DNA of 64,000 bases from contig SHBP01000003.1 in assembly GCA_004211905.1 (NCBI GenBank), positions 144,986 through 208,985 of the forward strand, in the 5' to 3' direction. The position numbers and the translations under genes are program-made. The stretch is from SAR92 clade bacterium. Lineage in GTDB: Bacteria; Pseudomonadota; Gammaproteobacteria; Pseudomonadales; Porticoccaceae. Shown piece after piece: positions 12,730 to 53,259 of this stretch; within the stretch, counting starts at the first letter, position 1; each line of letters starts with the position of its first letter. Below the pieces are notes generated by a model. It was not told the DNA's origin, ran no database searches, and saw nothing but the letters and a program-made list of their open reading frames with translations.

Positions 12730-14100
12730 TTAAGACAAAGCCTCAAGAGCTTCAGTTACCCTTCGAACAGGTACTATGCTCATACCTTTGATGGGTTGTT
12801 TTGGCATATTCCCTGCAGGTACGATAGCTCGACTAAAACCATGCTTAGCGGCTTCTCGCAATCGCTCTTGACCATTTGCGACGGGTCGAATTTCTCCGGC
12901 CAGTCCAACCTCACCAAAAACAACGAGATCTTTGGGTAAGGGACTATCTCGAAAACTAGATATCACTGATAGTATCAAGGCCAAATCGGCGCTGGTCTCA
13001 AGCACTTTGACCCCACCCACTACATTCACAAAGACATCTTGGTCACCTACCATGATACCGCCGTGACGATGCAGAACCGCCAATAGCATTGATAATCGAT
13101 TATGATCTAATCCAACTGTGACTCGGCGTGGATTGCCTAAATGGCTGTCATCGACTAATGCCTGAAGTTCCACTAGAAGAGGTCGTGTGCCCTCCCAAAC
13201 CACCATTACAACACTACCAGATGACACTTCCTCTCCACGCTGCAAAAATATCGCTGAAGGATTTGGTACTTCACGCAAACCTTTGTCAGTCATCGCGAAT
13301 ACGCCAAGCTCATTCACCGCACCAAAACGATTCTTATTACTGCGAAGTGTCCTAAAATGGCTATCACTGGAGCCCTCTAGCATTAAGGAGCAATCAATCA
13401 TATGCTCCAATACTTTAGGACCTGCTAAGGAGCCATCTTTGGTCACATGACCCACCATAATGAGTACTGTTCCGGTTTGTTTGGCAAATCTTACTAACAT
13501 TGCCGCACTTTCGCGGACCTGAGAGACACTGCCCGGCGCAGAGGCTACTTCTTCCAAGTGCATCACTTGAATAGAGTCAATAACTAGTACTTTGGGGCGC
13601 TTCTGCTCGGCAATAGCACAGACCGTCTCCACCGATGTCTCTGCCATAATTTCGAGCTTGTCAGTAGGTAAATCTAGTCGAGCTGCACGCATAGCCACCT
13701 GCTGCGGTGATTCTTCGCCAGTCACATATAGCGCACTGTTGCTGTTAGCCATGGTACAGAGGGTCTGCAACAAAACTGTACTCTTACCAGCACCAGGCTC
13801 CCCCCCGAGTAGCACACAAGATCCAGGCACAAACCCACCGCCCAGCACCAAATCCAGCTCGCCAGTTCCTGAGCTTATTCTTGGGATTTCATCGAGGGCA
13901 ATCTCAGACAAAGTTTTAACGGCACTATCTACACTCCCAGCGAAGCCCGGACGCAGAACAACTCCACCTCTTGATGACGTGCCTAAACGTACCTCAGACA
14001 ATGTGTTCCATGCATTGCATTCGCTGCATTGCCCTTGCCATTTCCGATAATCAGCTCCACAGTCATTGCAAACGAAAGCTGATTTAGTCTTGCTCGCCAA
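12730..14100 (-). CDS. radA: DNA repair protein RadA/Sms
   Basis: 456 aa; N-terminal C4 zinc motif CNDCGADYRKWQGQCSECNAWNT, GEPGAGKST, KNRFG motif, Lon-like C-terminal domain. Confidence 0.97.
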   Translation of the reverse strand: MASKTKSAFVCNDCGADYRKWQGQCSECNAWNTLSEVRLGTSSRGGVVLRPGFAGSVDSAVKTLSEIALDEIPRISSGTGELDLVLGGGFVPGSCVLLGGEPGAGKSTVLLQTLCTMANSNSALYVTGEESPQQVAMRAARLDLPTDKLEIMAETSVETVCAIAEQKRPKVLVIDSIQVMHLEEVASAPGSVSQVRESAAMLVRFAKQTGTVLIMVGHVTKDGSLAGPKVLEHMIDCSLMLEGSSDSHFRTLRSNKNRFGAVNELGVFAMTDKGLREVPNPSAIFLQRGEEVSSGSVVMVVWEGTRPLLVELQALVDDSHLGNPRRVTVGLDHNRLSMLLAVLHRHGGIMVGDQDVFVNVVGGVKVLETSADLALILSVISSFRDSPLPKDLVVFGEVGLAGEIRPVANGQERLREAAKHGFSRAIVPAGNMPKQPIKGMSIVPVRRVTEALEALS

Positions 14101-14139
14101 GTAACTCTCCTATTCCTAATAAGTTGTATTTAAACTTAT

Positions 14140-14159
14140 TACTGTTGTTATGTACAGTA
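14140..14159. promoter_or_regulatory. Putative LexA (SOS) box between radA and the DnaT-like gene
   Basis: TACTGTTGTTATGTACAGTA matches TACTGT-N8-ACAGTA (gammaproteobacterial CTGT-N8-ACAG) in the divergent intergenic region. Confidence 0.7.
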
Positions 14160-14273
14160 CTAATGGTATTCAAAATAATGAAGGGTATGGTGATTTTTTG
14201 GTAGGTAAATATACATACACCATTGTGTTAGGTTTATCTCGTCCAATCGGTGGCTTTCTGATACAGTAATATC

Positions 14274-15392
14274 ATGTCGTTAATTCCGGAAAAACCTATT
14301 GTTATTTCGCCCACTTTGGCTGCTACTATCGGTCTTGAAGAGACCGTGTTGTTGCAGCTTTTGCAGGAATGTAGCACCCATGGAAACCCTGAGACCAGTA
14401 ATGGTTTTAATTGGATTACACTGCCAAGTGAAAAGCTCCTCAGACTATCACCTTTCTGGGGACAAGATGATATTCGTCGGCTGTCAGCAAGCTTGCATGA
14501 AAAAGGACTGCTTTTGATTAGCGGCGGCCCATTCACAGCCAGTCAGCCTTTTAAATTCGCCTTTAATGAAACATGTGGATCACAATCCACATTAGCCAGT
14601 TCCTCGACTGTCAATCGTTCGATGGTTACGGAAAATCAACCAAAATCAGCAAAGACTATTGGCAGCAGCTGGCAACCAAGTGAGGATGCATTGCGGCAAT
14701 TGGCTCAGTTGGGGGTGACTAAAGAATTTGCACAACAGCAAATCCCACAATTCGTATCCTATTGGCGCGACAGAAATGTACCGCGCCATAGTTGGGAATC
14801 AAAATATATCAAAGAAGTATGGAGGCAGTGGCAACAAGCTCAGGCGACTCAAAATAGAAAAAGCAAAGAAGTCTCCCTAACAGGAGCCTGGAGACCCTCA
14901 ATTGATGCTTTGGATATTCTCATCACCAAAGGTGGTATCAGTGGTAATTTTGTTGACGATGCCATACCAGAGTTTATTCTATACTGGCGTGATCGAGGAG
15001 ATGTCTCTAGCACTTGGGACTCTAAATTTATTCATCATGTACGGCGCCAATGGCAGTTCTTTACTGGAATCATGGACCAAGACAGTATGCCACGAATAAT
15101 CACTTCCCAATGGAAACCCAAGGAAGCGGTATATGATGTATTACAGATGGCTAATATAGAACGTTCCTTTGCTGAAAAAATTGTTCCTGAGTTTGTTTTA
15201 TACTGGCAGGAGAACGGCACACCACAATGTTCGTGGAGTACCAAATTTTTGCAGTATGTGAAACGACAATGGGCGTACCAAAGTAAATTAACAACGGAAT
15301 CTTCAAATGGCAAACAGCAAGGACATTCAAAAGGTCGCATCCGAGATCGCAGCATCATCGACGCGCTCTCCGACCGCAGCTGGGCGTCCTAA
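14274..15392 (+). CDS. DnaT-like primosomal protein with three tandem DnaT-C-like domains
   Basis: 372 aa; N-terminal winged-helix-like region followed by three repeats of W-x-P...F(V/I)xYW(R/Q)(D/E).....W.(S/T)KF(I/L)..V(W/R/K)RQW resembling the E. coli DnaT C-terminal domain. Confidence 0.75.
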   Translation: MSLIPEKPIVISPTLAATIGLEETVLLQLLQECSTHGNPETSNGFNWITLPSEKLLRLSPFWGQDDIRRLSASLHEKGLLLISGGPFTASQPFKFAFNETCGSQSTLASSSTVNRSMVTENQPKSAKTIGSSWQPSEDALRQLAQLGVTKEFAQQQIPQFVSYWRDRNVPRHSWESKYIKEVWRQWQQAQATQNRKSKEVSLTGAWRPSIDALDILITKGGISGNFVDDAIPEFILYWRDRGDVSSTWDSKFIHHVRRQWQFFTGIMDQDSMPRIITSQWKPKEAVYDVLQMANIERSFAEKIVPEFVLYWQENGTPQCSWSTKFLQYVKRQWAYQSKLTTESSNGKQQGHSKGRIRDRSIIDALSDRSWAS

Positions 15393-15969
15393 GGCTTCGC
15401 CAATAAACCCTAAACTGGTTGATGCCATCAATCAGGTTTTTGCTTTGTTTCAAGTGAATTATCACAACCAGTACTACAGTGCATTCGGCGACAACACAAA
15501 GTCTGAAAATCTTGCCAAGAAACTCTGGTTGAATAAACTAGACCACTTCTCTTCCGAGACTATCTGTGGTGCCGCAGAGAAAATTATCGCCGAGAGTGAA
15601 TACCTTCCTACACTGCATAAAATGCTAAGTGCCTGCCGTCAGGTTGGCATGCCCGCTGGGCTGCCTAATCCGAGAAAAGCCTATCAAGAAGCCTGCAACA
15701 AACGCAGCCCTAAAGCTAAACAGCAATGGTCTCATCCCGCGGTGTACCTCTCAGGTCGTGATGCTGGCTGGCACATGTTAGCCAACGAAATTGAGTCAAA
15801 GGCGCTTCCTGCCTTCGCTGAAATTTATCAACAATACTGTGATCGTGTTTTGGCTGGAGAGAAACTTATTGTTGATACAGCAGCCTCAGAGGCTGAATTG
15901 ACTGAACTACCAGCAACTAAAAAGCATAATCAACAGCAACTTGATAATCTAAGGAAACTGTTAGATTAA
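15307..15969 (+). CDS. Phage lambda replication protein P-like helicase loader homologue
   Basis: 220 aa; similarity pattern to lambda P (INxVFxxF..., ...LPTLHKMLSACRQ...AGLPN..., W.HPAVYLSGRDAGWHMLANEI...). Start overlaps the upstream gene by 86 nt in another frame. Confidence 0.7.
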   Translation: MANSKDIQKVASEIAASSTRSPTAAGRPKASPINPKLVDAINQVFALFQVNYHNQYYSAFGDNTKSENLAKKLWLNKLDHFSSETICGAAEKIIAESEYLPTLHKMLSACRQVGMPAGLPNPRKAYQEACNKRSPKAKQQWSHPAVYLSGRDAGWHMLANEIESKALPAFAEIYQQYCDRVLAGEKLIVDTAASEAELTELPATKKHNQQQLDNLRKLLD

Positions 15970-53232: not shown

Positions 53233-53259
53233 AATATTACCTGTAAGAGCTAACAGCGA

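Follow-up and report, generated by a model that had tools for sequence, protein, structure and literature searches.

A conserved LexA-type operator at the radA promoter probably makes radA a DNA damage-inducible gene in SAR92/HTCC2207-group bacteria

A 20-nt palindrome at positions 14140 to 14159 of the window, a 64,000-nt stretch of DNA from a SAR92 clade bacterium, is with high probability the LexA operator of radA, a gene that would be derepressed by DNA damage together with the SOS genes. The divergent DnaT-like operon probably lies outside this switch. In the mechanism that we propose, the predicted core promoter of radA overlaps the 20-nt site, on which LexA would sit to keep radA expression low. 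DNA damage would give rise to RecA filaments on single-stranded DNA, and these would trigger LexA self-cleavage. The radA gene would then be derepressed alongside recA, lexA, imuA and dnaE2, and the induced RadA would aid RecA-mediated recombination through branch migration. That LexA binds at radA, occludes its promoter and releases it upon damage is inferred from sequence comparisons across the host genome, its genus and the order.

Results

A LexA-type palindrome lies between radA and a DnaT-like gene

The palindrome (TACTGTTGTTATGTACAGTA, no strand assigned; TACTGTACATAACAACAGTA when read towards radA) matches the LexA operator, including its TA flanks, exactly as an earlier note on this DNA had described. 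It sits between two divergent transcription units. On the minus strand, radA (sms; 12730 to 14100; TIGR00416, 673.8 bits, cut-off 403) has a TTG start and a ribosome-binding site, AGGAG, at 14107 to 14111. On the plus strand, a DnaT-like gene encoding three DnaT domains (14274 to 15392; PF17948, 8.6e-62) overlaps a lambda P-like gene (15307 to 15969; PF06992, 2.5e-08). The box is separated by 39 nt from the radA TTG (14100) and by 114 nt from the DnaT-like ATG (14274), in agreement with the distances of 40 and about 115 nt given previously. Neither the DnaT-like nor the lambda P-like product matched an NCBIfam family. As an overlapping chromosomal pair, their genes resemble the dnaT-dnaC layout.

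Promoter predictions placed a possible radA -35 element (TGTACA, 14151 to 14156, minus strand) within the box and a possible -10 element (TTAAAT, 14128 to 14133, minus strand) just past it in the direction of radA. The 17-nt spacer between these two elements is conserved across the genus, and no stretch flanking the box other than TTAAAT is strongly conserved. An alternative -10 (CATAAC/T) is found inside the box in several species. At only 33 of 45 loci do the top sigma-70 promoter prediction and the box overlap. As either the -35 or, alternatively, the -10 falls inside the box, bound LexA is predicted to block RNA polymerase in either case. The position of the box relative to the radA start varies: it is about -58 for most genus members, -34 for a small-genome branch and -84 for one group where the promoter reads TTGACA-N17-TATAAA and its -10 falls inside the box. 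Retention of an operator while the surrounding promoter shifts is the pattern expected from selection for repression.

The extended motif marks SOS genes in the genus

The host genome is a 2.28-Mb metagenome-assembled genome (MAG) of a SAR92/HTCC2207-type Porticoccaceae. The core CTGT-N8-ACAG occurs twice in the window against 0.84 expected, and the genome has 24 copies of it compared with 25 of the reversed control. The bare core is thus not significant alone, and discrimination comes from the extended motif only. The full motif, TACTGT-N8-ACAGTA, has only two copies in the whole genome, upstream of recA and of radA, and its reversed control has none; near-perfect copies lie upstream of imuA and dnaE2. 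Apart from these, the only intergenic sites among the 24 core matches were one at 53241, before an RNA polymerase alpha-like gene, and a second elsewhere in the genome, before an htpG-like gene. Both were set aside as chance matches, as they lack the TA flanks and score low.

We also scored sites with a matrix built solely from the lexA operators of the order. The radA site obtained the top score of the window (16.8; runner-up 9.4). The best site per random 64-kb window scored 11.6 on average (n = 30) with a maximum of 18.1, so the matrix score alone is suggestive, and conservation decides.

The full 20-nt motif was then scanned in 50 genomes of the genus, with the reversed motif as a control. 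It was found in 44 of them at about two sites per genome (mostly two or three), and the reversed control gave zero in most genomes. Thirty-one of these sites were fetched and assigned by homology. Directly upstream of SOS-type genes were 29 of the 31: nine at recA, seven at imuA, seven at dnaE2 and six at radA. The two remaining sites comprise one adjoining an ORF that resembles UmuD, as judged from its sequence (L239), and one at a contig edge with radA-type sequence (L222). With 29 of 31 sites at recA, imuA, dnaE2 or radA, the full motif marks a predicted SOS regulon of the genus, and radA is a member of it.

The box is conserved with radA

All radA promoters that we examined in the genus have kept the box, including 28 of 28 further radA loci. 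We also looked at the 80 closest radA loci from named genomes, mostly Porticoccaceae and including SAR92/HTCC2207. Of these, 45 carry the box, and they belong to the clade of the window, its small-genome branch, one neighbouring clade and LSUCC0057. Two changes on a RadA tree account for this distribution. The box is absent at three long-branched loci beside the neighbouring clade (L190, L197 and L199), two of which are titled SAR92 cluster. Cultured members with the box at radA include HTCC2207, MOLA455 and H921. In an alignment of 29 sequences on the box, the information content reached 1.81 bits per column, against 0.44 in the upstream flank and 0.94 in the downstream flank; some species have CCAG instead of ACAG as the right half-site. 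The box accompanies radA regardless of whether the DnaT-like gene adjoins.

Genus LexA retains the recognition-helix region

In the genus, lexA itself is preceded by a similar operator, of the type TACTGTATATAATYACAG, 40 to 56 nt upstream. The LexA protein of the genus shares 131 of 202 residues with that of E. coli, and the recognition-helix region is kept. Conservation, genus-wide motif occupancy and the LexA protein strongly support the reading of the palindrome as a LexA box linked to radA.

A search of the MAG itself did not find lexA, a gene found in 54 of the 56 relatives searched. Its neighbour in relatives, topA, was likewise unrecovered, and the only DNA match was an aldo-keto reductase-like paralogue. 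Since topA is missing too, an assembly gap is the likely explanation for the absence of lexA. On the same two grounds, the missing topA and the paralogue as sole match, we set aside the idea of a LexA-less genome with relic boxes. The recA, imuA, dnaE2 and radA boxes are all retained in this MAG despite no lexA being found.

Other regulators and chance

A repressor other than LexA that recognizes a similar dyad, such as another S24-family or phage-type regulator, might bind the palindrome. The N8 centre of the radA box (TTGTTATG or CATAACAA) is indeed unlike that of the lexA operators (ATATAATC), and the palindrome scores only middling with the lexA-derived matrix. However, recA, imuA and dnaE2 carry the identical motif type in the same genomes, and the recA site scores even lower than the radA site with this matrix (7.3 versus 16.8), so that such N8 centres are normal for the regulon. 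The radA box of the small-genome branch, TACTGTATATAAAAACAGTA, resembles the lexA operators closely. We therefore consider a different repressor very unlikely. Still less credible is a functionless chance match: the core CTGT-N8-ACAG is expected about once per window, but the full motif is rare and is conserved across the genus and neighbouring groups, and the conservation data contradict chance to the point that we give it almost no weight. A LexA operator of radA is the reading that we retain.

The DnaT-like operon is probably outside the switch

It had been proposed that this single operator makes radA and the divergent DnaT-like/lambda P-like pair inducible by DNA damage together. The layout is suggestive, as the two genes diverge from a region that holds the box in the window and in several relatives. 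Yet the box follows radA: in relatives where dnaT lies 698 to 1471 nt away, the box is at radA and there is none at dnaT. A further gene intervenes between radA and the DnaT-like gene in many species of the genus, and at genus loci where the two are not neighbours the DnaT-like promoter lacks a box. In 19 further loci with dnaT near radA on the opposite strand there is no box at all.

The DnaT-like gene has instead a strongly conserved promoter-like element of its own (14233 to 14268, plus strand), which stays clear of the box by about 74 nt. Its consensus over 30 loci is approximately TTTATCTCGTyCA-N8-GCTTTCTGATAAAGTA and ends a few bases 5' of the ATG. The element is conserved without the box, and is retained at loci where radA lies elsewhere. 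The absence of the box at separated dnaT genes and the conservation of this element leave the joint switch unsupported, and we regard it as improbable; the DnaT-like operon probably has its own promoter outside LexA control. Where the two genes are adjacent, an effect of the box on both is possible. No clear ribosome-binding site precedes the DnaT-like ATG in the 30 aligned loci (14233 to 14276), and the DnaT-like mRNA may be leaderless.

LexA boxes at radA, recN and ruvCAB in the order

The survey was widened to the order with one representative from each of 87 further genus samples, counting as strong a box that scores at least 22 within 400 nt of radA. Six of the 87 have a strong radA box, one of them within Porticoccaceae, against 0.08 expected from shuffling and none with the reversed motif. 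In other genera of the order, radA-associated LexA-like boxes were seen at loci L242, L255, L256, L263, L307 and L312. Such isolated boxes in scattered genera suggest either repeated recruitment or scattered retention. A strong radA box was found in none of 60 other gammaproteobacterial families. In E. coli, there is no box at radA or at serB, located ahead of radA, which bears out the statement in the earlier note that radA is not a classical LexA target in that species.

The other recombination genes show a different picture. In the genus, the 200 nt preceding recN yielded no good box (17 genomes, best scores 15 to 19), and neither did the up to 1500 nt available before ruvA (best scores at most 20 among 19 genomes, of which a few had little upstream sequence). 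The same holds for the window genome at recN (L436, G000:C23:81497-83152; score 15) and at ruvA (L397, G000:C18:16545-17126); the recN and ruv loci of this genome and its relatives are within L395 to L446. The recN gene of several genus members retains the left half-site only (TTCTGTATAAA). In other families of the order, recN boxes score 21 to 25 (G035, G037, G039, G040 and G041), and ruv-region boxes occur further upstream (G035, G043 and G044), a contrast that sets one genus against ten other genomes with no tree.

RuvAB is a branch migrator. In E. coli, RadA stimulates branch migration during RecA-mediated strand exchange (PMC4786428). Both being branch-migration factors, RadA may have assumed the inducible role. 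Both recN and ruvAB/ruvCAB belong to the canonical SOS genes of E. coli and Vibrio (PMC3323433). We tentatively put forward, as a scenario with somewhat less than even chances, that the genus lost LexA control of recN and ruvCAB and gained that of radA, with RadA replacing RuvAB as the damage-inducible branch-migration factor beside recA, imuA and dnaE2.

Discussion

In the SAR92/HTCC2207 group, DNA damage probably turns on radA expression, in contrast to the situation in E. coli. We consider it highly probable that LexA acts on radA through this site in the SAR92-type genus and also in some relatives. We found no paper dealing with SAR92 and LexA together in a partial coverage of the literature. 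Judged on this partial literature, what is new is very probably the target, radA, whereas its regulator and the kind of system are well known. The gene is a widespread recombination gene that lies outside LexA control in E. coli, and its entry into the core LexA regulon in one lineage would illustrate the turnover of SOS regulons. The SAR92 case offers a natural setting to ask whether RadA can act as an inducible branch-migration factor. As this marine group has cultured box-bearing members, the prediction is directly testable.

The predicted regulon resembles the LexA regulons of E. coli and Vibrio in its operator type, in the recognition-helix region of LexA and in the membership of recA and lexA. 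It differs from both in that recN and ruvCAB lack a good box in the SAR92 genus. The radA gene is a member in the genus, whereas it is boxless in E. coli and goes unmentioned in two Vibrio SOS papers (one of them PMC3323433). The boxes at imuA and dnaE2 in the host genome are shared with the LexA-controlled imuA-imuB-dnaE2 genes of Proteobacteria; unlike in that arrangement, about 5.8 kb separates the two boxed starts in the MAG, so that dnaE2 appears to have its own operator.

Outside Proteobacteria, radA of Mycobacterium tuberculosis is induced by moxifloxacin (PMC7911356), and a precedent for LexA control comes from Corynebacterium. In C. glutamicum, as predicted for the SAR92 genus, radA is counted as a member of the LexA regulon. 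Corynebacterium belongs to a distant phylum with another LexA motif, and for this reason LexA control of radA there would be either independent or very old. The C. glutamicum gene (cg2950) is counted in the LexA regulon and is raised by ciprofloxacin (PMC5055667).
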